Below, piece after piece: positions 1 to 11,591 of a stretch of DNA of 64,000 nucleotides (the first letter of the stretch is position 1; the number at the start of each line of letters is the position of its first letter). Location of the stretch: positions 1,860,001-1,924,000 of the forward strand of contig NZ_AP024850.1 of NCBI RefSeq assembly GCF_024346675.1, written 5' to 3'. Both the position numbers and the translations under genes were made by a program. The stretch comes from Photobacterium sanguinicancri (GTDB taxonomy: Bacteria; Pseudomonadota; Gammaproteobacteria; Enterobacterales; Vibrionaceae). Below the pieces are notes generated by a model, which was given only the letters and a program-made list of their open reading frames with translations, ran no database searches and was not told the origin of the DNA.

Positions 1-1397
1 TAAAACAGTCAAGAATTGCGCACCGTGTAGGGGTTTTAAACAAGGCTAGGCGAGGTAATACCACGTTAGACAGTGCCGAGGCTTTCTACAATCACGACAC
101 CTTGTACGCCAGCACAGAGGCGAATGAAGGCAAGGCATTATCCACAGTTCGACTGATGAATCGTGAATGGTCGGGGCAATTTCGTGTTTTGCACCATACC
201 CAAACCCGACCAAGTGACGCACCCGAGCAACAAAGTGGTGATCGCTACACTGAAAACCTGACTAAACGCGCTGTGACCAAAATTTTTGAGTCGGGCGCGT
301 ATGTTGCTGCGTGTCATGGCGGGTTCACCACATTTTTGACCCTGACGTTTACCCCTGAACAGCGCAACGCCATATTCAGCAAAGACACCACGCTCGGCAA
401 AGAAGTATCCCGTTTTTTAGATGGGGCGAAAAAAATGTATCAGCGTGGTTGGCACGGTATCGGCAAAGATGAACAACCGTTTGAGCTAGACGGCATTGAA
501 AAACCATTTCATTACATGTGGGTGGCAGAATGCCCGGCAAATGATGACGGTGAACCTAACCCGCATGTGCATTTGTTGATGAATTGGAATGTAGAACGTA
601 ATTACTTTGAAGCGTGGGCAAACCGAATCGAAAGCCTTTGGGGCAATGGGTTCGCGCACCTTGAACATATTAACCAACCCAAAGCAGCAGGTTCTTATTT
701 AATCAAAGCTGTGGGTTATGCCGCTAAAGGTGAAAATGCAGACCAAGGGTTAATCCGTGGCAACCGTTACAACATCGCCCGCTGTAGTCGTGCGCCAGCA
801 TGGGATTGTGTTGCCAGTTTTGAAGCCAGCAACATGGCCGCGATTATCAAAGAACTGGGTTACAAGTTAGAACAATGGCGCAAACCCTTAACCCGCCGAT
901 TAAAGCGCATTGAAAAGCAAAAAGACCAAGCGATTGCCGCCAAGGCCATTGCTAAAAAAGCCAAGAAACCGAAAGAACACCTCAAAAAACTGTCGGCCTT
1001 AATTGCCAGGCTAGAACACCAAGCCAAAGCCGCACGCGACCAAATCAAAAGCCGTGGTGTTCATGCCACAAGTAACAACCTGTTTTGTGTGTCGTTTGAT
1101 GGTGAGCAATCCGAAGAAAAAGCCTACGACTTTCTATTGTGGGCGGCTGGCGCTCGGGGTTGGTCGATGGTGGCCACCGATGCTGATGACGATTACCACA
1201 AAGCGGTTGATGTTGCTCGCGATGCTGCGCAAAGCGAATACGCCGACCACTTTTACCGCTTCAAAGAAAAACGCGCTTACTGGCAAAGCGTTTTACATGA
1301 TCCACTTTCACCACCGATATATTCAGAGGACGAAATCAAAGCCACTGAATCTTATTCAATGATGTTGGTCGAGCAGTACCAACAACTCGCAGCCTAA
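1..1397 (+). CDS. HUH-family rolling-circle replication initiator (5' end outside window)
   Basis: Rolling-circle Rep: it would nick the phage origin and start replication. The HUH family motifs are visible: motif 1 FLTLTF, motif 2 PHVHLLM (the metal-binding His-x-His) and motif 3 YLIKAVGYAAKG with the catalytic Tyr and Lys. The C-terminal half is rich in Lys and Arg with a helical stretch near RRLKRIEKQKDQAIAAKA. The reading frame is open to the left edge (first full codon at 3), so the gene probably starts upstream of the window; an internal TTG at 102 is only a fallback start. PM2 uses a Rep of this superfamily. The next gene follows after 14 bases behind an AAGGA ribosome site. Confidence 0.75.
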   Translation, partial: KQSRIAHRVGVLNKARRGNTTLDSAEAFYNHDTLYASTEANEGKALSTVRLMNREWSGQFRVLHHTQTRPSDAPEQQSGDRYTENLTKRAVTKIFESGAYVAACHGGFTTFLTLTFTPEQRNAIFSKDTTLGKEVSRFLDGAKKMYQRGWHGIGKDEQPFELDGIEKPFHYMWVAECPANDDGEPNPHVHLLMNWNVERNYFEAWANRIESLWGNGFAHLEHINQPKAAGSYLIKAVGYAAKGENADQGLIRGNRYNIARCSRAPAWDCVASFEASNMAAIIKELGYKLEQWRKPLTRRLKRIEKQKDQAIAAKAIAKKAKKPKEHLKKLSALIARLEHQAKAARDQIKSRGVHATSNNLFCVSFDGEQSEEKAYDFLLWAAGARGWSMVATDADDDYHKAVDVARDAAQSEYADHFYRFKEKRAYWQSVLHDPLSPPIYSEDEIKATESYSMMLVEQYQQLAA

Positions 1398-1411
1398 CAG
1401 TAAGGAACACT

Positions 1412-1585
1412 ATGAGTCAGTTGCAAAAAATCACGGATGAACTTGCTCAAGAAGTCGAGCAGGCCAAAGGCAATATGTTTGCAGGCAAAATCCTCGCGCC
1501 ATTGCGTTTGGTGTTGGTATGGATGCAAGGCGTCAACGACAAGCTAAATGAACTTGAACAACGTAGTGGTGGTTTCAATGGCTAA
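1412..1585 (+). CDS. Small phage protein, 57 aa, unknown
   Basis: An ATG with a good TAAGGAACAC ribosome site directly follows the Rep gene. The 57-residue product starts MSQLQKITDEL, has a charged amphipathic N-terminal helix and a hydrophobic centre (ILAPLRLVLVWM), and ends NDKLNELEQ. It overlaps the next gene by 8 bases, so the two are probably translationally coupled. No family was recognised; the hydrophobic core suggests membrane contact. Confidence 0.55.
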   Translation: MSQLQKITDELAQEVEQAKGNMFAGKILAPLRLVLVWMQGVNDKLNELEQRSGGFNG

Positions 1586-2087
1586 AACAGACAGCAACGG
1601 TTTTCCAGCACGTAACACCGCCAACCCAACAATTGGCGGCCAACGTTGTGAGTGTGGTGATGTGCGCACGCTGCATCAAGCCAAAGGTAAGCGGGCGAAT
1701 TTCTTGTATTCCGTCTGTGATAACTGCGGCACTGACCAACGCACGGGCGACCCCGTGCAAACCAAATTCAAAGCGCATTACCCAAGCATGGCCGCCTTAC
1801 TGGCAGCCGAACAAGCCACCAAACAAAGTGACCCCGTAACCTTACCCGAAGGCATTGAGGCAAATGGCAACCACCAAGAACCCGAAAGCATCGCTCAAGA
1901 AACACCGCCAGCACTGCAAAAACCAAGCGGTAAAAGCAGCGATAGTGAAGCAACAACAACTACGGTTACAAGCCGAAAACCAAACCAAACAGAAACCGAA
2001 CCCCAAACCGAAAAACCTGCCTTCTGGGCAATCTTTCGCGGGGTGGTTCTCGGGGCTATTTGCGGCGGTGTTATCACACGTTTCTAA
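1578..2087 (+). CDS. Zinc-ribbon protein with C-terminal membrane helix
   Basis: The 169-residue product has an N-terminal zinc-ribbon pattern (RCECG, then about 22 residues later VCDNCG), a long low-complexity middle rich in Pro, Glu, Gln, Thr and Ser, and a C-terminal hydrophobic helix (AIFRGVVLGAICGGVITRF). The ATG at 1578 (MAKTDS) overlaps the preceding stop and is preferred over an upstream TTG at 1548 because it fits the coupled-gene pattern. A soluble zinc domain tethered to a membrane by a C-terminal anchor fits a membrane-phage component; no exact function is recognised. Confidence 0.6.
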   Translation: MAKTDSNGFPARNTANPTIGGQRCECGDVRTLHQAKGKRANFLYSVCDNCGTDQRTGDPVQTKFKAHYPSMAALLAAEQATKQSDPVTLPEGIEANGNHQEPESIAQETPPALQKPSGKSSDSEATTTTVTSRKPNQTETEPQTEKPAFWAIFRGVVLGAICGGVITRF

Positions 2088-2112
2088 TCAACATTAAACC
2101 TATAGGCTATTT

Positions 2113-2613
2113 ATGGACGAACAAAACCTAGTACCAGAAAACAACGAAAGCGTTTCACCTGAACAAGAAAGCGCGATGATTAAAGCAATGGATGCGGTTG
2201 ATAAAGCCAATGATACCCAAGATTTTGACCCCGAAGCCACGGCCAAGGCTGAACAAACCGAATCAGAGCAAAACGCGTTAGCCGAACAAGGCGCACAAAT
2301 GACCGCTTACATGGGGTTAGCCGCCATTGAAATGGCGATTCAAAGCACGGTGCACCCACGCTTTAAAATCCCTGACCATAACCGTGATGACGTGATCAAA
2401 AATTGTGCCCCTGTACTCATCAAATACGGGGCGTTATTGCCTGAATGGTTAGCGGCTTACCAAGCTGAAATCACCGCGCTAAAAGCCATCGGTTCATTGG
2501 GCATGGCAAGTTACGGCGAAATCAAACGTTTGAACGCCGAAGATAAGGCCTTGCTGGCCGCCGATGCTCAGAACGATGACCAAGTGGGAGATACCACACA
2601 GGAGGCTGCATAA
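2113..2613 (+). CDS. Acidic phage protein, 166 aa, unknown
   Basis: A Glu/Asp/Gln-rich protein with an acidic N-terminal third (NESVSPEQES) and a more hydrophobic helical middle (MTAYMGLAAIEMAIQS, then KNCAPVLIKYGALLPEWLAAYQ). Its stop overlaps the ATG of the packaging ATPase by one base. The position directly before the ATPase, in the early part of the operon, suggests a virion assembly or structural role, but no family was recognised. Confidence 0.6.
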   Translation: MDEQNLVPENNESVSPEQESAMIKAMDAVDKANDTQDFDPEATAKAEQTESEQNALAEQGAQMTAYMGLAAIEMAIQSTVHPRFKIPDHNRDDVIKNCAPVLIKYGALLPEWLAAYQAEITALKAIGSLGMASYGEIKRLNAEDKALLAADAQNDDQVGDTTQEAA

Positions 2614-3281
2614 TGAAGCCGATTAATCCCAATAACAGCTTAGCCAATAACCATGTGTCACTGATTAGCACCTCGGGCGGTGGTAAAACCTCCGCCGTGA
2701 AAAAGCTATTCATTAAGCCGACTGACCAAGCCGTATTTTTTGACCCGTACGGCGATTATGACGAACGCATTGCGGGGCGTATGGTGCGCACCTATGAGAA
2801 ATGGGGCGATTTTACCCGCGCTGTCTTGGCGGGACGCAAAACCAACCAAGGCTTTAAGATTGCCAAAACTTTTAGCGGTGAACCGACTCAAGAAGATTTT
2901 GAGCGTTTCGCCCAAATCGTGTGGGGCTGTGGCGATGGCAACCACACTAAACCGCTAAAGGCCGTGTTTGAAGAGTGTGCTCAGTTTGCTGATACCTCGG
3001 GCAAGGCCAAAGGCACACACGGTTCCATCATGCGGGTTGGCCGTAAGTTTGGTATCCATGCGATTAACCCGTTTCAGCGTGGGCAAGAAGTACCCAAAAC
3101 CATTTTAGGTAACAGCCGTTACAAATGGGTGGGGATTCAAGCCCGTGAAAATGATGCTAAGTACCTCGCCGCTGAAACAGGCATACCGCTCACTGAGATT
3201 TTAAGCCTGAAAAAGCTGGAATATTTCTTAAAAGACGGTGACACCATGAACAGCCACACCAAAGACAAACTTCGCTTTTAG
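2613..3281 (+). CDS. HerA/FtsK-like genome-packaging ATPase (P9-like)
   Basis: The enzyme would pump or inject the genome through one vertex of the capsid. The 222-residue product has Walker A at residues 19-27 (STSGGGKTS), a likely Walker B with catalytic acid (KAVFEECAQF), and a sensor-type segment GRKFGIHAINPFQRGQEV resembling the Arg-bearing region of HerA/FtsK and A32-type viral ATPases. Its small size is typical of packaging ATPases of membrane-containing phages. It is followed by a strong terminator and then the capsid gene, an order common in this virus lineage. An endogenous HerA-like protein is less likely given the neighbours. Confidence 0.8.
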   Translation: MKPINPNNSLANNHVSLISTSGGGKTSAVKKLFIKPTDQAVFFDPYGDYDERIAGRMVRTYEKWGDFTRAVLAGRKTNQGFKIAKTFSGEPTQEDFERFAQIVWGCGDGNHTKPLKAVFEECAQFADTSGKAKGTHGSIMRVGRKFGIHAINPFQRGQEVPKTILGNSRYKWVGIQARENDAKYLAAETGIPLTEILSLKKLEYFLKDGDTMNSHTKDKLRF

Positions 3282-3304
3282 TGTGACCCAAAGCAAATAT
3301 CACC

Positions 3305-3339
3305 AAGCCCGTGACCTATAGGTTTACGGGCTTTTTTTT
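3305..3339 (+). terminator. Rho-independent terminator after the ATPase gene
   Basis: AAGCCCGT (3305-3312) pairs with ACGGGCTT (3326-3333), followed by an uninterrupted T run to 3339. The loop carries the palindrome CCTATAGG. It splits the phage block into an early unit (Rep to ATPase) and a late structural unit. Confidence 0.8.
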
Positions 3340-3411
3340 GTTTGCCTTAAAACCGAATCCCTTGCTTTTCTGATGTGGCTTTAAGTCATTTAAACCACAG
3401 AGAGAAATCAA

Positions 3412-3525
3412 ATGAATGCAAAAACGAAAGGCTACATCGTAACGGGCTTTATTGCCTTGGTGGTTGCGGGTGTAGTGGTTTGGGCGTCTAACAACGTTGA
3501 TGCCGTTGAAGACCAAATCGGTTAA
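3412..3525 (+). CDS. One-helix phage membrane peptide, 37 aa
   Basis: The ATG follows an AGAGAGAAATC purine-rich ribosome site. The 37-residue product has a short basic N-terminus (MNAKTKG), a single hydrophobic helix (YIVTGFIALVVAGVVVWA) and an acidic tail (NNVDAVEDQIG). It sits 14 bases before the capsid gene. Such tiny single-pass proteins are typical of the internal membrane of PM2-like virions. Inferred role: virion membrane protein. Confidence 0.6.
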   Translation: MNAKTKGYIVTGFIALVVAGVVVWASNNVDAVEDQIG

Positions 3526-3539
3526 GGGAGCGCAAACAA

Positions 3540-4391
3540 ATGGAATTACTTAGCACTAAGTTTGCACCTCGCCCGAAAGAACTCGACCCCGTTGAAGGCG
3601 TGGGTTGGGGTAACCGCGCGTCACTGCGTTTGGTTTCGGGCCCGACGTATCACAGCATTGAGCTTGTGACCGACATTCTTGACCCAAAAGACATTGAACG
3701 CGTTGAAGTGTCACTCAATGGTTCGCCAATTTACAGCGTATCGGCTGACACCTTGGTTGCCATTCAATCACACCGTAAAAACTACGCCGAAGCTGGCCGT
3801 TACATCATCTCGTTTGGTGATGCCACGCTACGTACCAAAATCGGTGTCCGCCAAACCGACCTTGTGACTAAACAAGGTGAAATCTGGTTTGTGCATATCA
3901 CGCTCAAAGCCAAACCCACGGCGGATGCACAAGGCCAACCGATTGTTGCGCCGTCTATTCGTGCCCGTGCGCATGTGCTACCCGCACAAAGTGAGCGTTA
4001 CTACATGCCGCGCCTCAAAGAAATTACATGGTTCGCGTCTGCCGCTGGCCGAACAACCTTTGATTTTGCCGAGCGTAGTGCAACTTTCAATATCAAGCGT
4101 ATCCACTTCAAAGATGAGTCGATTGATCGTGTGCGAATTTTGCGTGACTCGTTTGAAGAGCTGAACGTCACCAAAGCCGATAACGCGTTCGATTTAGCCC
4201 AATCCAAGAAAGAACAAACCCAAGGCTGGTTAAGTCTCGACTTTATCCGCTACGGCTTTGGTGCAGAAGGCATGTTAAACACCGCTGCGCATAGTCAATT
4301 GGGCTTTGAGTTGGATAAATCACAAACGGGCAGTATTCCCGTGATCATCGAAGCGGTTGAACAGGTCGCAGCGTTACCAACGGCGGCTTAA
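3540..4391 (+). CDS. Probable double-jelly-roll major capsid protein (P2-like)
   Basis: The 283-residue product is rich in beta-prone segments with no signal peptide or membrane helix (for example RASLRLVSGPTYHSIELVT and RVEVSLNGSPIYSV in the first half, RTTFDFAERSATFNIKRI and WLSLDFIRYGFG in the second). Length, two similar-sized halves and position one gene after the packaging ATPase match PM2-type and autolykivirus-type major capsid proteins (about 270-280 residues). The ribosome site GGGAGCG lies just upstream. Identification rests on length, context and composition, not on a catalytic motif; a structure prediction would be decisive. Confidence 0.7.
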   Translation: MELLSTKFAPRPKELDPVEGVGWGNRASLRLVSGPTYHSIELVTDILDPKDIERVEVSLNGSPIYSVSADTLVAIQSHRKNYAEAGRYIISFGDATLRTKIGVRQTDLVTKQGEIWFVHITLKAKPTADAQGQPIVAPSIRARAHVLPAQSERYYMPRLKEITWFASAAGRTTFDFAERSATFNIKRIHFKDESIDRVRILRDSFEELNVTKADNAFDLAQSKKEQTQGWLSLDFIRYGFGAEGMLNTAAHSQLGFELDKSQTGSIPVIIEAVEQVAALPTAA

Positions 4392-4401
4392 AGGGGGGCT
4401 T

Positions 4402-4674
4402 ATGTTTGATGATTGGGGTGAAACCCTCGGCGGTATTACCGATTCCATCATAAGCGGGGGTGAGTCTTGGGTTGATGGTTGGTTTGATAATGAAACCAAC
4501 AAAGTCAAAGACGCCGCGCCCGAACAACAGCGCCCGAAAGAAGAGCCTGCCCGTCAACCCGACGGGCAACCCATTAATTACCAACCACTGACCAGCACCA
4601 ACATGATGTTGATGATGGGCGGCGGCATGGTGGTGTTAATGGTGTTCATGTTCTTAATGACGCGGGGGAAATAA
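4402..4674 (+). CDS. C-tail-anchored phage membrane protein, 90 aa
   Basis: The ATG at 4402 lies behind a very strong AAGGGGGG ribosome site; an upstream in-frame start at 4357 would run into the capsid gene and is not favoured. The soluble N-terminus (MFDDWGETLGG) is followed by a charged Pro/Gln-rich linker and one Met-rich hydrophobic helix (MMLMMGGGMVVLMVFMFLM) ending TRGK. The same end (FLM, then RGK) occurs in the 5471-6025 gene product, hinting at a shared membrane-anchoring design. The stop overlaps the next start. Confidence 0.6.
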   Translation: MFDDWGETLGGITDSIISGGESWVDGWFDNETNKVKDAAPEQQRPKEEPARQPDGQPINYQPLTSTNMMLMMGGGMVVLMVFMFLMTRGK

Positions 4675-4823
4675 TGCCATTACTTTTCTGGCCGTTATTG
4701 GTCGGCACTGTGGGTTTTGTTGGGGGCATGTTCACGGGTGAGGCATTTAGCCGCACCCTGAAACTGTTGATTACTGTCGTGATGGGTTTATGGCTCATCA
4801 ATATCACGGGGGTATTGAAATAA
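4674..4823 (+). CDS. Two-helix phage membrane peptide, 49 aa
   Basis: The ATG overlaps the stop of the previous gene (TAATG), and its own stop overlaps the next ATG in the same way. The 49-residue product is almost entirely hydrophobic: MPLLFWPLLVGTVGFVGGMF, a short polar turn TGEAFSRTLK, then LLITVVMGLWLINITGVLK. A hairpin of two membrane helices is likely. The coupling between neighbours is the main evidence that it is translated. Confidence 0.55.
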   Translation: MPLLFWPLLVGTVGFVGGMFTGEAFSRTLKLLITVVMGLWLINITGVLK

Positions 4824-5035
4824 TGATGCCAGGTATCGGCGCACTCACAAACAGCGGTTCAATGCCGATTGATGCAGGCGGTGGTTCGGCTGGACCATCT
4901 TCTGCAACCGCTGATAACAACATGGGTTTCAAGGTTGGCGCTATCAATATGGGTGGCGGCAATGCACTGGGGAATTGGTTGCCCGTACTGCTGGCACTGC
5001 TCGCGGTTTGGTTTCTGATTAAGAAGGTGGGCTGA
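4823..5035 (+). CDS. Gly-rich C-tail-anchored phage membrane protein, 70 aa
   Basis: The start at 4823 (MMPGIGALT) is chosen because it overlaps the upstream stop; the longer version from 4790 would run inside the previous gene. The first 45 residues are Gly/Ala/Asn-rich and flexible (DAGGGSAGPSSATA); the last 20 form one hydrophobic helix (LPVLLALLAVWFLI) ending KKVG. The stop overlaps the next start by one base. Likely a virion membrane protein; no family recognised. Confidence 0.55.
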   Translation: MMPGIGALTNSGSMPIDAGGGSAGPSSATADNNMGFKVGAINMGGGNALGNWLPVLLALLAVWFLIKKVG

Positions 5036-5478
5036 TGTATTTCCGAATTATTCGACCAACGGCCGCCGATTTTGATGCCAACCTGAAATTTTTGAAAGCT
5101 GCCTTTGTCGGCTCAGATGATCCTAAAGGCGAGTTTGAAGAAACCCGAGACAAGATACTCAATCAGGGCGCGTCGTTCTATCTGCTATCAGGTAAAGGCG
5201 TGAAATTGTGGTTCGCGGGTAAAGTCATGAACGATGGCGGTTATCACATTATTGCGCTCGCTGGCCGAGGCTATGTGATGGAAGGTGCGCTTTACATTAT
5301 TGAGCGTGTTGCTGCTTGCGGTTATCCCTTTGTGACCTGCCATACCTACCGCAAAGGCATGCGCCGTATCTTCAACCGTTTAGGTGCAACAGAAGAACAA
5401 GTACGCGAGCTGGCGAACACCTCAGAAACGAAGCACCGATTAAACCTGATGGATGATACTGGAGGGTTAAATGGGTAA
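5035..5478 (+). CDS. GNAT-like phage protein, 147 aa
   Basis: A soluble alpha/beta protein. The arrangement (YLLSGKGVKLWFAGKV; GGYHIIALAGRGYVMEGALYIIERV; CHTYRKGMRRIFNRLGA) resembles the strand-helix layout of GNAT acetyltransferases, with the G-R-G-Y segment where the acyl-CoA loop would lie and the R-x-x-x-R-L-G-A segment in a typical GNAT C-terminal position. Sequence support is moderate: the full Q/RxxGxG/A motif is not seen, so catalysis is uncertain. It lies among virion genes, and GNAT-fold proteins do occur in phage structural clusters. Confidence 0.45.
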   Translation: MYFRIIRPTAADFDANLKFLKAAFVGSDDPKGEFEETRDKILNQGASFYLLSGKGVKLWFAGKVMNDGGYHIIALAGRGYVMEGALYIIERVAACGYPFVTCHTYRKGMRRIFNRLGATEEQVRELANTSETKHRLNLMDDTGGLNG

Positions 5479-6025
5479 GGGCGGCAACAGTAAAAGTGAC
5501 AATACAACGACCAGTACCAACACCAGTGGTCAAAATGCCATTCAGGGTGACAACCTCGGTGTCGCCATTTCTGGGGTTAACGACTCAAACATCGACGTCA
5601 CCATGACAGACCACGGCGCAATGGAACGCGCCGCAGAGTTGGGAGAATTGGCGTTAACCAGTAACACCGAAGTCAGCACCAAGGCGTTAGAAACCAATGC
5701 CAAAGTGACCAGTGATGCCTTAAACATGGGCAAAGACGTGGTGAAAAACGCCATGAACTTTGGTGAAAAGGCATTAACCACTAATGCGGATGTGTCGAAA
5801 ACGGCCATGAAGCATGTGACCACGGCGCACAGTGAGAACTTGCAATACATTGCGGGCATGGCTGGCAACCAAGCGGCACAAAACAGCAAGAACCTTGAAA
5901 CGCTGACGGAATTAGCAGGGATGAAAGCCGACGGCGGCCAAGTCCAAACCACTAAGCAGATGACCATTACCGTGGGTTTGGTGATGGGGTTTCTTGCCGT
6001 GATGTTTTTGATGCGAGGTAAGTAA
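5471..6025 (+). CDS. Hendecad-repeat coiled-coil protein with C-terminal membrane anchor
   Basis: The 184-residue product has a Ser/Thr/Asn-rich N-terminus (NTTTSTNTSGQNA), then about five consecutive 11-residue repeats with a recurring Ala/Leu start (ALTSNTEVSTK, ALETNAKVTSD, ALNMGKDVVKN, AMNFGEKALTT, NADVSKTAMKH), and a C-terminal hydrophobic helix ending FLMRGK. Eleven-residue periodicity is known for right-handed coiled coils. It overlaps both neighbours by a few bases. Inferred role: a membrane-anchored rod or a link between membrane and capsid vertex; no family recognised. Confidence 0.6.
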   Translation: MGKGGNSKSDNTTTSTNTSGQNAIQGDNLGVAISGVNDSNIDVTMTDHGAMERAAELGELALTSNTEVSTKALETNAKVTSDALNMGKDVVKNAMNFGEKALTTNADVSKTAMKHVTTAHSENLQYIAGMAGNQAAQNSKNLETLTELAGMKADGGQVQTTKQMTITVGLVMGFLAVMFLMRGK

Positions 6026-6756
6026 TGTTTAAGCAAATGATGCAGCCATACCAGCGCACCGATTTTCAATTGGTCGGCGAATTTCTTTATGTGGAACGTT
6101 GCACGGGGACGGTACTCATTCAAACCGACCGTGGCGAATACCGCCTAAAGCAAGGCGCTCAGGTAATAGACCCTAAATTGGCAGGGCGTTTAACCATTGA
6201 AAACCTCGGCGATGCGGGTGAAATCGAATTGATTTCAGGTTATGGCCGTTACGTACCGCCCGCCGATGGGCAACAAGTCAGCGTTGAAAAGATGCCCGCG
6301 CTTGAAATGGCCGCAGGGCAAAGCATGAATGTTGCCGTGACAGAGCAACCCGCGATGCAGTTAGCGCCAAACCAAGCGGTAAACATTGAAGCCATGCCCC
6401 CAACGGTACTGGCTGAAAATCAAAACGTTGCCGTTAGCGCGTTACCTAAAGTGCAACTGGCAACAGGGCAAGTGGTTCGCGTCACCGCAACCACACCGCT
6501 GCTCACCAAGCCGACAGGCGGCAGCGAGTTAACAGCCACGCAATTAACAGTGACCGCAAATGCAGCGTCACTGGCTGCCAATACTCGCCGCTGCCATGCG
6601 GTTATCAAAGCCAAAGCCACCAATGTGGCCGAAGTGGTGTTGGCAGGGGGCTTTTCACTGGCCGCAGGCGAAAAACAAAAGATTGAAGCCACTTGTGAAC
6701 TGACTTTCTCAGGCACAGACGGCGACATTATTGAAATTTACGAGGTAGTACGATGA
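6025..6756 (+). CDS. Beta-repeat phage structural protein, 243 aa
   Basis: Three parts are visible. The N-terminal domain is about 85 residues (MFKQMMQPYQRTDF to GYGRYVPPADG). The middle holds four to five imperfect repeats of 16-18 residues, each opening with G/N-Q-x-V and holding a Pro-x-L core (QQVSVEKMPALEMAAG, QAVNIEAMPPTVLAEN, QNVAVSALPKVQLATG). A C-terminal beta-rich domain ends EIYEVVR. The repeat looks like a fibrous beta stalk. It lies directly before the probable spike, so a vertex or spike-base function is inferred; no family recognised. Confidence 0.6.
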   Translation: MFKQMMQPYQRTDFQLVGEFLYVERCTGTVLIQTDRGEYRLKQGAQVIDPKLAGRLTIENLGDAGEIELISGYGRYVPPADGQQVSVEKMPALEMAAGQSMNVAVTEQPAMQLAPNQAVNIEAMPPTVLAENQNVAVSALPKVQLATGQVVRVTATTPLLTKPTGGSELTATQLTVTANAASLAANTRRCHAVIKAKATNVAEVVLAGGFSLAAGEKQKIEATCELTFSGTDGDIIEIYEVVR

Positions 6757-7883
6757 CAGGGAAAACCTTGCGAGAACAACTGCCAGCAGGCGACCCACGC
6801 AACAAAGTGGAGTTTCTTGCAGATGAATTAGAAGCCCGCTCGGCTGAATTGCTCAAGCTATTGGGCAAAGCCAGTGGTATCCGTAGCTGGGTACACAACG
6901 GGGCGTTCTTGGATAACATCACCGATAAAGTTGCTCAACTTGAATACGAAGGGAACCAAATAGACAACGCCGTTGTAGGTTCACCGAATCAAAATAGCTG
7001 TGCGCTTGGTGACGGTTGGGCATTCGCATCATCTTCAAAAAACGACCCAACCGTTCTAACAGGCGCTTTCAGTGCTAAGCGCCAGTTGTATTGGCATGGC
7101 TTTAGTAAAGCTATCCCGTTTGATAGCCAGAGTATTTGGTGCATGGCGAGCAATGTAAAAGGCTCTGTTTACCAAGTTATTCAGTTACCCAATATTAAAG
7201 CGAAATACAAAGCCCGTATCTATTTCTCAACGGAGGTAGGCGCAAAGATAACCGTAGGGGCGAGTTGTTATGGTAGCGGTTCTCTTTATCCGTTGAGAGT
7301 GTCGCAAGAGTTAATTTCAACCCGCGCCACGTATGATTCTGATAACACAAGCCCGCACTTTGGTGCGTTCGATGTGCAGACGTTAGAGAGTCAAGAATTT
7401 GAAGCGTCGAGAGCGGGTGAATATACGGTGCTGTTTGTTGAAATTGACCCACAAGCAGAGAGCAAAAGCCTCTTTTTGCATGGTGTGGAGCTAATCCGTA
7501 GTGATAAAAACCCAACATGGGAAGCGGAAAACGTCACCCATCAAACCGATATGCTGGGGTATCAACGCTTTGTTGATGGCTTGAATTACTCTTGCCGAGA
7601 CTTTGCCCCCGAACAACCGAATATTTACACCTTTAAAAGTAACAGACCCAAAGGGGTTTCGTTCGCGTGTCCTCAAGGCTTTGATAAGCATTTTTCATTC
7701 ACGGGCTTTTACATTGGTAACAAGGCTTACAACGATGCTGACGGTGTGAAGTTGTTATCTGTTGATGGCGATACGATTACAGTATTCATTCCTGACAATG
7801 TAGTGAGCCGTTTTGGTGATGCTTTGTATCTTGGTGTTTATCTGAATTGGTCGGCGATGCCTGTACGTATTGGGCTTTATTAA
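6753..7883 (+). CDS. Probable receptor-binding spike protein, 376 aa
   Basis: The longest structural gene of the block; ATG overlaps the upstream TGA. The first 60 residues are helical and charged (LREQLPAGDPRNKVEFLADELEAR is followed by ELLKLLGKASG), and the rest is beta-rich with many aromatic residues and no membrane segment. A helical N-terminal attachment domain plus a large beta C-terminus, in the place where PM2-like phages carry the spike, suggests host receptor binding. The function is inferred from context; no enzymatic motif was seen. Confidence 0.5.
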   Translation: MTGKTLREQLPAGDPRNKVEFLADELEARSAELLKLLGKASGIRSWVHNGAFLDNITDKVAQLEYEGNQIDNAVVGSPNQNSCALGDGWAFASSSKNDPTVLTGAFSAKRQLYWHGFSKAIPFDSQSIWCMASNVKGSVYQVIQLPNIKAKYKARIYFSTEVGAKITVGASCYGSGSLYPLRVSQELISTRATYDSDNTSPHFGAFDVQTLESQEFEASRAGEYTVLFVEIDPQAESKSLFLHGVELIRSDKNPTWEAENVTHQTDMLGYQRFVDGLNYSCRDFAPEQPNIYTFKSNRPKGVSFACPQGFDKHFSFTGFYIGNKAYNDADGVKLLSVDGDTITVFIPDNVVSRFGDALYLGVYLNWSAMPVRIGLY

Positions 7884-7894
7884 GTGGTGAGCGC

Positions 7895-8506
7895 GTGAAT
7901 TCTAAACGAGTTGTAATTGTTGGCGGTGGCTGTGTCGTTCTAGGTCTCGGTTTGTTTGCATATTTAAATAAAAAGCAAAAACAACATAAGAATGCCGCGC
8001 TTATTCATAGCGGTTCGGTTGCTCTTGGGAATAACCCAACAGTAACCGACATGAAAAATACTGTTAATTTCATAGGTGACATGATGGGAAATGTTTTAAA
8101 AAGAAAACCGCGCGGCATTCGTAATAACAATCCTTTAAATATTCGTGAATCAAAAGGTGATCGCACGAATTGGAAAGGTGAACGTAAAACCGATGATGAC
8201 AAAGCATTTGAAGAATTTACGCATGTGAAGTACGGCTTTCGAGCAGCAACGCGCATTCTTCGCAGTTATCAAAAGCGCGGTATCAATACCGTTTACTCTA
8301 TTGTGCATACGTTCGCGCCAGCGCATGAAAACAACAGCGACCATTATGTAAATTTTGTTTGTCGTGAAACGGGGTTTGATAAACATCAAATGCTCGATGT
8401 TCGCAATAAACAAGTTGCCGCGTCACTGCTAAGAGCCATGGCAAAAATGGAAGTCGGGCACTTGTACCCAATGCACGAAGTAATGGAAGGGGTAAAACTG
8501 GCATGA
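7895..8506 (+). CDS. Membrane-anchored muramidase-like virion protein (P5-like)
   Basis: The GTG at 7895 gives a product starting VNSKRVVIVGGG with an N-terminal membrane helix (VVIVGGGCVVLGLGLFAYL); the longer version from 7847 would overlap the spike gene. The soluble domain begins RGIRNNNPLNIRES, a signature of phage virion-associated muramidase or transglycosylase-like proteins, followed by FKYGFR-like and ILRSYQKRG segments and HYVNFVCRETG. Known relatives help a virion cross the peptidoglycan. The membrane anchor fits an internal-membrane phage. The exact bond cleaved cannot be told. Confidence 0.65.
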   Translation: MNSKRVVIVGGGCVVLGLGLFAYLNKKQKQHKNAALIHSGSVALGNNPTVTDMKNTVNFIGDMMGNVLKRKPRGIRNNNPLNIRESKGDRTNWKGERKTDDDKAFEEFTHVKYGFRAATRILRSYQKRGINTVYSIVHTFAPAHENNSDHYVNFVCRETGFDKHQMLDVRNKQVAASLLRAMAKMEVGHLYPMHEVMEGVKLA

Positions 8507-8598
8507 ATAAGGCCGCAACCACCATTGCAATTAGCGTCACGGGCGTCGTTATCGGCGCTTACACACTCAAGTTTTTAAGGAAAAAAGGTTGGCTATGA
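8503..8598 (+). CDS. One-helix phage membrane peptide, 31 aa
   Basis: The ATG overlaps the upstream TGA by four bases and the gene's own TGA overlaps the next ATG. The 31-residue product is MNKAATTIAISVTGVVIGAY then TLKFLRKKGWL: one hydrophobic helix with a basic C-terminus. Coupling on both sides is the evidence for translation. Virion membrane or lysis role is possible. Confidence 0.5.
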   Translation: MNKAATTIAISVTGVVIGAYTLKFLRKKGWL

Positions 8599-8792
8599 TT
8601 GATTTTAAACAGAAAAGCACCCGTTCGGGTTTACTGCTGTTAGGCGCTGGCGTGGCGGGTTTGGTCACGGGTAACACCGAGCTGGCAAACATTGCCATTT
8701 CAGAAGGCAGTACCCAAATCGGTGGCGTTGTGCCTTTGGTCGCATCGTTAGCGGTTGGCCTATGGGATATGCTGCGTAACGAGAAAAAGTAG
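8595..8792 (+). CDS. Two-helix membrane protein, 65 aa, possible holin
   Basis: The ATG at 8595 overlaps the upstream stop. The 65-residue product has two hydrophobic stretches (GLLLLGAGVAGLVTGN and GGVVPLVASLAVGLWDML) separated by a polar loop and ends with the basic tail RNEKK. This size and topology, right after a muramidase-like gene, resemble small phage holins, but the call rests only on topology and position. Confidence 0.5.
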   Translation: MIDFKQKSTRSGLLLLGAGVAGLVTGNTELANIAISEGSTQIGGVVPLVASLAVGLWDMLRNEKK

Positions 8793-8805
8793 GAGAGTGA
8801 CGAGT

Positions 8806-8949
8806 ATGGAGTTATATCAAACCATACTCGTGGCTGCGGCCACGGGGTTTTGCTCAGCGTTTGGGACGGGTATTGCTATGAAGACGGATATTGCTTGGAT
8901 AAAGAGAATGTTAGAGAGCCATGATAAGCGAATTTCACGGCTCGAATAG
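8806..8949 (+). CDS. Small membrane protein, 47 aa, end of phage operon
   Basis: The ATG at 8806 has an AGGAG ribosome site; in-frame codons upstream to 8755 lie inside the previous gene. The 47-residue product has an N-terminal helix (TILVAAATGFCSAFGTGIAM) and a charged helical tail (WIKRMLESHDKRISRLE). N-terminal helix plus charged tail resembles phage spanin- or Rz-like and holin accessory proteins. It is the last phage gene before an AT-rich, non-coding gap. Confidence 0.5.
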   Translation: MELYQTILVAAATGFCSAFGTGIAMKTDIAWIKRMLESHDKRISRLE

Positions 8950-9027
8950 TATTTTTCTTTACATGATTGTTTATCTTTAATGAATAAGCTACTTGTTGTC
9001 TAGTGTGCTGGTTTCACGCAAAGCATA

Positions 9028-9053
9028 CGAGAAGACTAATGTTAGCCTTCTCG
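9028..9053. terminator. Hairpin at the end of the phage operon
   Basis: CGAGAAG (9028-9034) pairs with CTTCTCG (9047-9053), continued inside by CTAA/TTAG after one mismatch. There is no T run, so classical termination is uncertain; it may mark the end of the late operon or be another structural element. Confidence 0.4.
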
Positions 9054-9129
9054 GTTAAATATATCTGTTGTTGCATAAAAATAAATTTACCAGATAATAT
9101 GCTTTACCTTTCCTAACCATCTAACATAT

Positions 9130-9378
9130 ATGAAATTAAGTCATACCAAACACAAAGAAATCATCGATAAGGTTGAGGCGTTAAAATGCGATGGGTATCC
9201 ATTGATCACCAAAGAACAAGAGTTGACGGATTTTCTCAACGAATTAATGCCTGATGTCGATGGTGATATCAAAGATCAGTTAGTCGAGCACTCTGTTGAG
9301 GGTAAACCAGTCGATTGGAGTTCTTATGTGCCAATTTTATTACAAGTAATAACGCATCACTTTGAGTCCAAAGGCTAA
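9130..9378 (+). CDS. Cassette protein 1, 82 aa, unknown
   Basis: An acidic soluble protein starting MKLSHTKHKEIIDKV with segments LTDFLNELMPDVDGD and WSSYVPILLQVITHHFE. No family recognised and no membrane segment. The gene is followed within one base of its stop by an attC-like site, which is the structure of an integron gene cassette. Base composition is clearly more AT-rich than the phage genes to the left. No strong ribosome site is visible before the ATG. Confidence 0.55.
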   Translation: MKLSHTKHKEIIDKVEALKCDGYPLITKEQELTDFLNELMPDVDGDIKDQLVEHSVEGKPVDWSSYVPILLQVITHHFESKG

Positions 9379-9452
9379 CAGACTGTTCAAGAGGCATATC
9401 ATTTTCACTATGCGTTATGCAGCGACTTATTCACCCCTTAACAGGGCGTATG
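9373..9452 (+). repeat. attC-like recombination site of Vibrio type (cassette 1)
   Basis: The site starts GGCTAACAGACTGTTCAAGA, contains TTTCACTATGCGTT (9403-9416) and ends CCCCTTAACAGGGCGTATG. This matches the layout of chromosomal-integron repeats of Vibrio (TAACA..TTCAAGAGG ... CACTATGCGTT ... CCCTTAAC..GGCGTTATG). It is shorter than usual (about 80 bases) and the last core has lost one T, so it may no longer recombine. Confidence 0.7.
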
Positions 9453-9469
9453 AAAACTACAGGGATAAT

Positions 9470-10033
9470 ATGGATTTTGAATCAGCATTTAGGATAATTT
9501 TGGCGGCAGCTGGAAGTACTGCTGCCATTGGCTTTATTGGTAAATTGTTTGCCAATACAATCGCGACAGGAGCTATTAAAAAATATGATTTAGTTAATGC
9601 ACAAACGCTAGAAGAACAAAAACAGCAGTATCAAAAAGAAATAGAGAGTTTGAAGTCTCAATTGCTAAAACTTCAAAAAGAGCATGAGGTTGCGTTCAGT
9701 AGCTTGTATCAAAGACGCGAAGAAGTCATTACAAAGTTATATAAACTCATGAATAATTTTGTTGAAGTTAGTGACAAGAAACTGCGAGTTGATAACTCCC
9801 TTGATATAGAGCCTAGTTTTAGAGAGCTAAGTTATTTCTTTGATCTTAACCGTTTGTACTTTCCTCAATCTGTTGCATTGGATATTAATGGAGTTATTGT
9901 TACGGGATATGGGCTGTTGAAATCTGAAAATGAGAAAGAGTATGAGCATTTAGCAAGTCAGCTTAAAATTCAAGTGTTTAATCAAATGGAATTTGTTTTT
10001 CGTAAAATGCTAAAAAGCGAGGAACATCGATAA
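9470..10033 (+). CDS. Cassette protein 2: membrane-anchored coiled-coil protein, 187 aa
   Basis: The ATG at 9470 (MDFESAFR) follows an AGGGA ribosome site; longer in-frame starts run into the attC site and are rejected. An N-terminal hydrophobic segment (IILAAAGSTAAIGFIGKLF) is followed by a long coiled coil (EEQKQQYQKEIESLKSQL onward), then a helical domain with FFDLNRLYFPQSVALDING. Single-pass anchor plus coiled coil plus a soluble helical domain is seen in several cassette-borne and phage-defence proteins, but no catalytic motif is visible and no family was recognised. Confidence 0.6.
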   Translation: MDFESAFRIILAAAGSTAAIGFIGKLFANTIATGAIKKYDLVNAQTLEEQKQQYQKEIESLKSQLLKLQKEHEVAFSSLYQRREEVITKLYKLMNNFVEVSDKKLRVDNSLDIEPSFRELSYFFDLNRLYFPQSVALDINGVIVTGYGLLKSENEKEYEHLASQLKIQVFNQMEFVFRKMLKSEEHR

Positions 10034-10127
10034 AATTTTCATAAAAACCAGTCAAGGTGACGCGTTAAACTCGGCGGTAGATGTTCTTGGTGAGTTCATC
10101 GTGGCGCACCTCATTGCAGCGTTAGGT
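10034..10127 (+). repeat. Possible degenerate attC site (cassette 2)
   Basis: The stretch after cassette gene 2 ends GCAGCGTTAGGTG, which contains the attC core GTTRRRY (10121-10127); GTTAAAC near 10061 fits too. The left end lacks a clear inverse core and the body does not resemble the Vibrio repeats at 9373 and 10463. Called mainly from position between two cassette genes. Confidence 0.35.
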
Positions 10128-10231
10128 GTCATTATGGAATTGGTGCCTATATCTCTTTTTTTCTGAGTGTTTAGTTGCATACTAATCGCGCTTTGAAGTA
10201 TCAGATTTATTCAGAATAAGAGGGCTTAAGT

Positions 10232-10462
10232 ATGACACCGTATATGAATCATAATGGTAACTCTAATGTAGAGGCATATGAGGTTGATGGTAATTCAATC
10301 ACAGTAAAATTCATGTCTGGGAGATGGCAATACTATTTATATACGAGCCAGAGACCAGGTGCAGCAGTAGTTGAACAAATGCAAGATCTTGCTAGGCAAG
10401 GACAAGGCTTAAATTCATATATCTCACGAATTGTCCGAACCAATTTTGAGCGTAAGTGGTAA
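10232..10462 (+). CDS. Cassette protein 3: KTSC-domain-like protein, 76 aa
   Basis: The 76-residue product has the layout of a KTSC domain: SNVEAYEVDGNSITVKFMSG, WQYYLYTS, then a helix and GLNSYISRIVR near the end. KTSC domains are small and often cassette- or phage-encoded; some accompany lysyl-tRNA synthetase or nuclease domains, but their molecular role is poorly known. A purine-rich AAGAGGG stretch precedes the ATG, and an attC-like site follows immediately after the stop. Confidence 0.65.
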   Translation: MTPYMNHNGNSNVEAYEVDGNSITVKFMSGRWQYYLYTSQRPGAAVVEQMQDLARQGQGLNSYISRIVRTNFERKW

Positions 10463-10566
10463 ACACCATACAAACTATTCGCACGTGTGGCATTTCACTA
10501 TGCGTTGATTTTAGTGTTTAAGGTGGTCTGTATTACGTTGCTCATACCTTAACGCAGCGTTATAAC
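10463..10566 (+). repeat. attC-like recombination site of Vibrio type (cassette 3)
   Basis: The site contains TGGCATTTCACTATGCGTTG, then TTTTAGTGTTTAAGGTGG and ends CCTTAACGCAGCGTTAT. The central part is typical of Vibrio chromosomal-integron repeats. It shares the exact 14-mer TTTCACTATGCGTT with the site at 9373-9452. Confidence 0.75.
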
Positions 10567-10599
10567 AAAGCTTTCATTACGGATTCCCAACGCCTGACA

Positions 10600-10626
10600 A
10601 AGCCCGCAGTTCGCGGGCTTTTAATA
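10600..10626. terminator. Terminator between cassette 3 and the DUF3653 gene
   Basis: AAGCCCGC (10600-10607) pairs with GCGGGCTT (10613-10620) around a five-base loop, followed by TTAATATTAA. It lies between a + strand and a - strand gene and could serve both. Confidence 0.65.
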
Positions 10627-10645
10627 TTAAAGGCTAGGGAAGTTG

Positions 10646-11104
10646 TCACATTCTTTTCTTGGCTACCTCGCGATACATCTTCTTTTTCTCTTTGGTTACC
10701 GTGTCACTTTTTGGTTGCTTCAGACGGCGACCACCACGAAACGGTAATGGCGTCACCACATTGGAACGCACGGGAACATAGTCCAATTCGTACATACGTT
10801 TTAACTGATGATACTCATCAAACCGTAACGCGACAGAATCCAGCTCTTTGGGGCTGAACATTCGACCTTCGGGCGTGATAATCACACAGCGTTCCTCATC
10901 AATCCGAAATCCCGTCCAGCGGGTATCATCAGGCAAATAGCCACGAACCCGAATCAACAGCAGTTTTTCAGCCATTGGATTAACGTCCATCCAGCCAGAT
11001 AACCAACGTTTTACGGTGATGGGCTGAACATGAAACCAAGCCGCACCTTGGGGAATATCATCGAAACAACGCCAAAACAGCTTAACAAACGATTCGTGGA
11101 GCAT
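10646..11104 (-). CDS. Phage Cro-like regulator, DUF3653 family
   Basis: The 152-residue product has an N-terminal helix-turn-helix-like region (GAAWFHVQPITVKRWLSG) followed by NPMAEKLLLIRVRGYLP, GFRIDEERCVIITPEGR and FSPKELDSVALRFDEY, the pattern of the DUF3653 phage proteins found in Vibrio filamentous and other dif-integrating elements. The C-terminus is strongly basic (TKEKKKMYREVAKKRM). It points away from dif, and its promoter must lie in the gap before dif. As the only visible regulator it is a candidate control gene of the prophage; DNA binding is inferred. Confidence 0.65.
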   Translation of the reverse strand: MLHESFVKLFWRCFDDIPQGAAWFHVQPITVKRWLSGWMDVNPMAEKLLLIRVRGYLPDDTRWTGFRIDEERCVIITPEGRMFSPKELDSVALRFDEYHQLKRMYELDYVPVRSNVVTPLPFRGGRRLKQPKSDTVTKEKKKMYREVAKKRM

Positions 11105-11375
11105 GATGTACCTCGCAAAAAATATCTAAGTTTGATTCTATTTTTCGATTGATAAGGTGTGTACTGATAGGTAAAGCCGATTACCGTTAACAATTCTAGG
11201 TATCGAACCAAAGCACAAACTTATCAAGCACAGGCAAGATAACCACAGCAACAAAGTGATAAAACCACAAAGTAGTTATATAGATAATTGTTTCCAAAGG
11301 ATTTTTTGATAGAGAAATCATAGGTTTCGGCATTAACTCAGATTGGGCTTGAACCATGTTAAAAAAGTACCACCC

Positions 11376-11403
11376 AGTGCGCATTATATATATTATGTTA
11401 AAT
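11376..11403 (+). other. dif: dif site for XerC/XerD chromosome dimer resolution
   Basis: A 28-base site with the XerC arm AGTGCGCATTA, a six-base centre TATATA and the XerD arm TTATGTTAAAT. Both arms match the V. cholerae chromosome 1 dif as remembered; the centre differs by one base (TGTATA there). XerCD resolves chromosome dimers here, and integrative phages such as CTX use the same site. The site marks this window as the replication terminus region. The prophage on its left probably used it. Confidence 0.9.
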
Positions 11404-11591
11404 AAGGTGTCTAGAGATGGTAATGTCAGTACTACTTGGCATCTATTTGTTCTCCTCTTCTCTTATTTAGGCTCGTTACGGCGTGTTATTTAACAGTATT
11501 GCGTATTTACCATAAAATAGGTAATAAACACCTATGTTTAAGTACTGCTGCAAATGTTCAGTTTGCATGGTGCTTCAACTTAAGTGTTTAT

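Follow-up and report, generated by a model that had tools for sequence, protein, structure and literature searches.

The use of the host recombinases XerC and XerD (XerCD) by tailless phages has been proposed for NO16 (PMC9966536) and for Jorvik (PMC10589892). A survey of Vibrio cyclitrophicus (ISME J 2024; PMC11630473), which located the tailless prophages of hotspot H1 at dusA, found XerCD use inconclusive, stated that dif-located tailless prophages "regularly carried integrase genes", and left open whether tailless prophages at dif rely on host recombinases or on their own. TLCphi has an attP whose XerC site and centre are almost identical to dif1 and whose XerD site shows very little similarity to it; its recombination runs XerD first and without FtsK (PMC4246890), and it reportedly supplies an XerD activator of its own (PMC9765430, PMC4246890). 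Here we examine a window of 64,000 bp (the whole stretch of DNA analysed, C1:1860001-1924000) from the two-chromosome genome of Photobacterium sanguinicancri, which opens with a tailless prophage. We consider it likely that this is a temperate tailless membrane-type double-stranded DNA (dsDNA) phage (Vinavirales, with a PM2-type capsid) inserted at the dif of chromosome 1 and moved by the host XerC and XerD between attP and dif, with a DUF3653 protein as the putative XerD activator replacing an integrase.

The prophage measures 13,612 bp from att to att (13,640 bp counting both att copies), and its GC content is 46.2% vs 42.4% for the remaining window. Its left end is at C1:1857764 (L003:3764, L003 being a stretch that reaches left of the window), 2.2 kb outside the window, and thus the gene for the replication initiation protein (Rep) is truncated by the window edge. 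A whole-genome pattern search returned the 28-bp dif on the right as the only match of chromosome 1 at ≤3 mismatches, with one further match on chromosome 2. The initial annotation had already placed a dif there and had pointed leftward for a second dif-like site and for the start of Rep, and both were found on that side (Table 1). The left copy, attL, agrees with attR at 24 positions, compared with 19 for the best of 60 shuffles; the XerC arm and the centre are identical (17 contiguous identical positions) and all 4 differences fall in the XerD arm. The prophage att therefore belongs to the TLCphi-type class, in which the XerC arm and centre resemble dif while the XerD arm is degenerate. The features of an integrative mobile element exploiting Xer (IMEX) were found as well, namely att sites made of XerC and XerD arms, a position at dif, and no integrase detected.

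In a conspecific genome (G074) the site is empty: a single dif separates the counterparts of L003:3174-3780 on the left and of L003:17375 onward on the right, and these flanks are 96.9% and 96.6% identical, respectively, to those of the prophage. A stretch of contig 251 of G074 agrees without a difference over 2,055 bases with P. sanguinicancri CAIM 1827 (L050 vs L223), which points to that species for both genomes. The corresponding left flank in G074 is preceded by the remnant of a DUF3653 gene, and so dif has apparently been hit repeatedly. On chromosome 2 of the P. sanguinicancri genome, a decayed DUF3653 copy with an internal stop adjoins dif (G000:C2, L005:10242-10945) and is likely a scar that marks where a relative of this prophage was lost. 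The occurrence of such a decayed copy in the same genome would be in keeping with an immobile remnant fixed at the chromosome 1 dif too; we hold this to be very unlikely, as all 27 assigned open reading frames (ORFs) of the prophage are free of internal stops, both att sites are present and the site is empty in the conspecific.

An antisense helix-turn-helix (HTH) repressor gene, 18 bp inside attL, opens the prophage and is followed by six small ORFs, Rep, three small ORFs, the packaging ATPase and the P2 capsid. Beyond the capsid come a run of genes for structural and small membrane proteins, one for a virion protein resembling transglycosylases, a pair for small membrane proteins and three accessory genes; the DUF3653 gene, antisense like the repressor, stands last. 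The Rep, packaging ATPase, capsid-like and small membrane proteins that the initial annotation had read from the DNA were all recovered on one strand, with several small hydrophobic proteins among them; within the structural/membrane block, hydrophobic 19-residue stretches occur in 4 of the 6 ORFs measured. The capsid candidate matched P2_N (E 9.6e-44) and P2_C (E 5e-39) in Pfam, and its structure model (predicted template modelling score, pTM, of 0.90) adopts the double-jelly-roll fold of the PM2 type, as had been supposed, with P2 of PM2 as the best solved match (2vvf, template modelling scores of 0.84/0.88). Two hallmarks of Vinavirales, a P2-type double-jelly-roll capsid and an adjacent FtsK/HerA-type packaging ATPase, were found. 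There was no convincing tail gene among the PHROG matches, though some of the matches are labelled "tail".

No integrase was found among the prophage proteins scanned with Pfam or PHROGs, scans outside of which the smallest ORFs fell. A hidden tyrosine integrase was also considered and rejected, since a hidden Markov model (HMM) of integrases, started from two phage integrases and then iterated, detected none among the prophage ORFs of at least 50 codons. The initial annotation had likewise seen no integrase and had named one with its own att repeats at the left as the finding that would speak against its proposal; none was found between the two att copies. The host genome encodes XerD as well as another Xer-type recombinase, presumably XerC. 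The suggested XerCD-dependent integration is thus supported by the dif-like att pair, the lack of a detectable integrase and the empty dif of the conspecific.

The gene beside dif, overlooked in the initial annotation, starts 271 bp from attR and encodes a DUF3653 protein, with a PF12375 score of 72 bits against a gathering cut-off of 22.4. Its only NCBIfam match at E 0.01 was NF040522, the "VC1465 family Xer recombination activation factor"; we take VC1465 to be XafT, which agrees with the family name. NF040522 was matched by 41 of 42 aligned DUF3653 sequences, including that of the prophage. Mere HTH similarity was rejected as the source of this match, as residues 55-152, from which the HTH is removed, still had NF040522 as their only NCBIfam match, collinear, though only at E 3.2e-4 (E 1.3e-5 for the NO16 counterpart). 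A function as "S-adenosylhomocysteine hydrolase" was discarded too, no such family being present among the Pfam and NCBIfam matches of this protein or of the NO16 gene. Foldseek searches with the structure model (mean predicted local distance difference test, pLDDT, of 74.6) returned mostly HTH folds, the best at E 0.51. Judged by these family matches, the DUF3653 protein may be a Xer activator, distantly related to a known switch of the host recombinase.

The capsid family PF18628 was found in 96 of 329 Vibrionaceae genomes, at 127 listed places including the one described here. We examined 121 of these, reading up to ~10 kb on each side of the capsid with HMMs grown within this set (omitted were G247:C39, G315:C13, G020:C34, G310:C1, G168:C1 and G120:C11). 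An integrase was present anywhere in 32 loci and DUF3653 in 48, and no locus had both. Within the same 121 loci, dif (≤4 mismatches) was detected in 42, of which 40 have DUF3653 and none has an integrase; the other two are L111, where the capsid is a fragment, and L081, which is truncated by the contig start. After exclusion of L111 and of 20 incomplete loci (those with a flank of <9 kb), 100 loci remained in which the capsid is whole and both flanks are complete; downstream of the capsid, 30 of them have an integrase, 41 have DUF3653, none has both and 29 have neither (Fisher p 3e-9). In these, dif accompanies 36 of the 41 DUF3653 loci, none of the 30 integrase loci and one of the 29 with neither (L158). 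Ten ORFs taken from nine loci with neither marker included four FixG-like ones, one each in L101, L114, L130 and L188, and these four loci perhaps represent another integration site and mechanism near a FixG-like gene.

On a quick maximum-likelihood tree of the capsids, which is partly unsure with several long branches, the DUF3653 label changes 19 times, and 14 of these changes are forced by well-supported branches. In 14 independent tree pairs, dif follows DUF3653 in 12.2, opposes it in 0.2 and shows no difference in 1.6 (median p 0.0005), while DUF3653 and integrase go opposite ways in every pair that differs. The mutual exclusion recurred in the published V. cyclitrophicus records, where, among the 40 listed of 41 capsid records found, an integrase is carried by 31 (all relatives of one integrase), DUF3653 by 8, both by none and neither by 1. 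Recombination at dif by an undescribed kind of integrase, the product of a gene without assigned function, could be accommodated by the prophage, about half of whose genes have no assigned function, and would suit the statement that dif-targeting tailless prophages regularly carry integrases (PMC11630473). We regard it as barely credible, given that the att arms are the Xer-binding arms, that among the genes tested dif loci are marked by the repressor and DUF3653 and not by an integrase, and that the integrase HMM found none in the five DUF3653-bearing V. cyclitrophicus records inspected. Two of these five have an IS629-like transposase at their edge, which may partly explain the disagreement with the published sentence.

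DUF3653 is not the sole marker of dif loci, as might have been supposed from these counts, for the repressor accompanies it. It is present in 37 of the 41 DUF3653 loci, in one of the 29 loci with neither marker (L149) and in none of the 30 integrase loci, and thus repressor, att and DUF3653 appear to be exchanged together. Among the 37 DUF3653 loci with dif at ≤3 mismatches, 25 have a partner site at ≥21 of 28 positions, comprising 19 of class A, 5 of class B and L109, which shows the genome of L168 a second time; another 5 form class C and the other 7 fall in no class. In class A (this prophage and 18 others), the XerC arm and centre are kept, and in all 19 loci attL and attR agree in the centre, which varies between hosts. 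In class B, the XerD arm is kept, together with the centre in 4 of the 5 loci, and the XerC arm is degenerate. In class C, only the XerC arm is kept, ~7 bases before a XerD-like arm as in VGJphi; with 10-11 of 11 positions shared in the XerC arm and 17-19 of 28 overall, this class is not significant by that score alone and is supported by the site of PG21, a circular tailless phage in which an att-like site separates the HTH gene from the DUF3653 gene. We incline slightly towards the view that a compact Xer-integration cassette (repressor, attP and XafT-like activator) circulates between the realms of tailless dsDNA and filamentous single-stranded DNA phages and, with at least 14 changes of DUF3653 on the capsid tree, repeatedly displaces the integrase cassette in tailless phages, moving the phage from dif to other sites or back, and that this kind of phage uses three att architectures, one TLC-like, one VGJ-like and one whose XerC arm is degenerate.

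The same element could also use XerCD with the DUF3653 protein acting only as a transcription regulator of the lysogeny switch, in which case the recombinases would act with FtsK or unaided. The confidently modelled N-terminal helices of the protein are of HTH type (the HTH matches being weak), its gene travels with the repressor, orf136 of VGJphi is annotated as "putative regulator", and the passage of a review on VGJphi names only XerC, XerD, attP and dif1 as essential (PMC4246890). We nevertheless think this unlikely. The Xer activation factor family is the sole NCBIfam match of the C-terminal half, the prophage already has a separate repressor, and the integrase gene of integrase-bearing relatives likewise lies downstream of the capsid operon. 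Moreover, when 40 named loci were found through DUF3653 alone, 33 had dif, and in 23 dif ends 246-290 bp before the DUF3653 match.

Several points weigh against the DUF3653 protein as a putative XerD activator and against the proposed Xer-dependent recombination. The NF040522 score of 37.3 bits is well under the curated cut-off of 70, and hence we term the protein a remote relative and not a member of the XafT family. Matches below the cut-off occurred also in 4 of 14 control genomes and in 194 of the 329 Vibrionaceae genomes, with none over it, so that they stand for remote kinship, as read through the family model. No dif was found within ~10 kb in 5 of the 41 DUF3653 loci, and 7 of the 40 named loci had none within reach; the 29 of 100 loci with neither marker downstream of the capsid also count here, two of which (L149 and L158) have DUF3653 upstream. 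Within ~1.5 kb, dif was found at 22 of the 30 best DUF3653 family hits and not at 8, and, at ≤4 mismatches, at 4 of 13 hits outside Vibrionaceae and not at 9, and at 3 of 8 further Vibrionaceae loci and not at 5. DUF3653 and integrase are opposite in only 5.7 of the 14 tree pairs (median p 0.03). As the repressor travels with DUF3653, the association alone cannot single out the Xer-acting gene. The host genome also contains four other partial matches to the XerD model, so that other tyrosine recombinases could be involved, and our counts contradict the report of integrases in dif-located tailless prophages (PMC11630473).

With DUF3653 as the candidate activator, we infer that XerCD act on this element as follows. 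The circular phage would integrate and excise through recombination of attP with dif by the host XerC and XerD, attP having a consensus XerC arm, a centre matching that of the host and a degenerate XerD arm. Since integration leaves one full dif (attR), chromosome resolution would be kept. By analogy with TLCphi the reaction may run XerD first, and the DUF3653 protein beside att would switch XerD on without FtsK, replacing the integrase of related phages. A relative in Vibrio gazogenes ATCC 43942 is found both integrated and as a circle of 11,916 bp deposited as a plasmid (G161:C3 / NZ_CP018837, L264), 99.97% identical to each other. The circle holds one copy of the att partner of the integrated element and, by this comparison, looks like the excised form of a tailless prophage.

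Table 1. Features of the P. sanguinicancri prophage (window positions unless given with L003; E, expectation value).
Feature	Position	Strand or orientation	Basis
attL	L003:3764-3791	direct repeat of attR	24/28 positions equal
Replication initiation protein (HUH-type, REP_ORF2-G2P)	1-1397 in window, ATG at L003:5688	+	PF23343 E 1.5e-9; phrog_3584 E 4e-4; 39% to NO16 Rep
Three small genes between Rep and ATPase (57, 170, 166 aa)	1412-2613	+	ORFs; 166-aa product phrog_12153 E 2e-6
Packaging ATPase (HerA/FtsK-type)	2613-3281	+	phrog_2666 E 3e-33; PF01935 (DUF87) E 0.0027, below cut-off
Major capsid protein P2, double jelly roll	3540-4391	+	PF18628/PF25513; AlphaFold2 pLDDT 93.4; Foldseek PM2 P2 2vvf E 1.6e-23
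Structural/membrane block, seven ORFs (90, 49, 71, 147, 184, 243, 376 aa)	4402-7883	+	phrog_12673, 10333, 12546, 12829
Virion-associated peptidoglycan transglycosylase-like protein	7883-8506	+	phrog_873 E 1.5e-46
Two small membrane proteins (67, 49 aa)	8592-8949	+	phrog_8494, phrog_37192
Accessory block: 82 aa, 223 aa (membrane + coiled coil), 76 aa	9130-10462	+	no convincing Pfam or PADLOC match
DUF3653 gene, candidate Xer activation factor (XafT-like)	10646-11104	-	PF12375 E 4.4e-20; NF040522 E 2.4e-9
attR = chromosome 1 dif	11376-11403	+	full XerC and XerD arms; whole-genome pattern search

The PADLOC scan of the accessory genes gave a best E of 0.008 and nothing convincing, and the name KTSC for the 76-aa protein found no support in Pfam. 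In the related tailless phage PQ189336, a protein annotated as NLR_like_bNACHT01 (L270:12520-14310) lies between the small membrane genes and DUF3653, the same place as that of the accessory genes in P. sanguinicancri. Directly left of attL, a short ORF (L003:3023-3661) has transposase-type HTH domains. An inverted, conserved dif-like site was observed near dif at window 11505-11532 (minus strand) and also at L005:10099-10126, with TATTTTATGGTAAAT at its XerD side (14-15 of 15). In 64 of 75 distinct dif contexts, among them those of both P. sanguinicancri chromosomes, such a site is found on the XerD side of dif at a distance of 105-192 bp; controls that reversed the orientation or took the opposite side reached at most 12 of 15.

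The phage itself belongs to a known kind of tailless phage. Within the literature searched, what is new is the candidate Xer activator, its mutual exclusion with the integrase and its sharing with filamentous phages: among the matches listed, no paper links XafT or DUF3653 with tailless phages, which the original XafT paper may do, and one paper contains "DUF3653" (PMC8069663). On the question whether tailless prophages at dif use host recombinases, the exclusivity of DUF3653 and integrase, repeated in the genomes deposited with the ISME J 2024 survey, favours the host enzymes and names one candidate gene, which in NO16 bears the label of a metabolic enzyme. An activator gene beside att may explain how these often overlooked phages insert, and DUF3653 adjoining dif offers a sequence handle for detecting them.

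The initial annotation had assigned the prophage to the PM2/NO16 type; the PM2-type capsid stood, and plain identity with NO16 did not. NO16 ("Asemoviridae"; Corticoviridae in GenBank) resembles the prophage in its repressor (54% identical), Rep (39%) and DUF3653 protein (60%), in the order repressor-att-DUF3653, in an att-like site with a similarly degenerate XerD arm and in that no integrase was found. The best att-like site of the circular NO16 genome, GGTGCGCATTATGTATAATGTGGTAAAC, lies between the HTH gene and the "S-adenosylhomocysteine hydrolase" gene, a DUF3653 homologue, and joining the ends of the P. sanguinicancri prophage gives the same HTH-att-DUF3653 order. The two differ in size (10.6 kb for NO16, 13.6 kb here), and only 6 of the 27 assigned proteins are recognisable by tblastn (E<1e-3), the capsid and most structural proteins not being among them. 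As for the three "Asemoviridae" markers (ATPase, capsid and "SAH hydrolase"), the DUF3653 protein, counterpart of the last, is accompanied by an ATPase of 28% identity and a capsid unmatched by tblastn, although the survey capsid HMM does reach the NO16 capsid. Closer capsids are those of the V. cyclitrophicus tailless prophages (PQ189284-PQ189389 range), the nearest seven being 61-63% identical; PQ189338 has 15 of the 27 proteins in common with the prophage and PQ189336 has 14, and the repressor and DUF3653 ends are shared by both, whereas 31 of the 40 listed records have an integrase instead. The integrase-bearing B11_PE001 shares the capsid (63%) and not Rep, repressor or DUF3653, and the protein comparison with NO16 and B11_PE001 shows a mosaic genome.

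Jorvik (Vinavirales, from Rhodobacter) is likewise tailless and integrase-less, with a dif-like attP for which XerCD was proposed; it is likened here by its published description, and differs in its alphaproteobacterial host and in its integration in the RuBisCO operon (PMC10589892). TLCphi shares the attP architecture of this prophage, which encodes a putative remote relative of the XafT family; TLCphi differs in being a satellite without virion genes (PMC4246890). The filamentous VGJphi belongs to another viral realm and its att-like site has a 7-bp centre, yet it has the same order of repressor (orf154), attP and DUF3653-like protein (orf136); orf154 matches the same PHROG families as the prophage repressor (638 and 4441), and orf136 matches both DUF3653 and NF040522, in each case below the cut-off.

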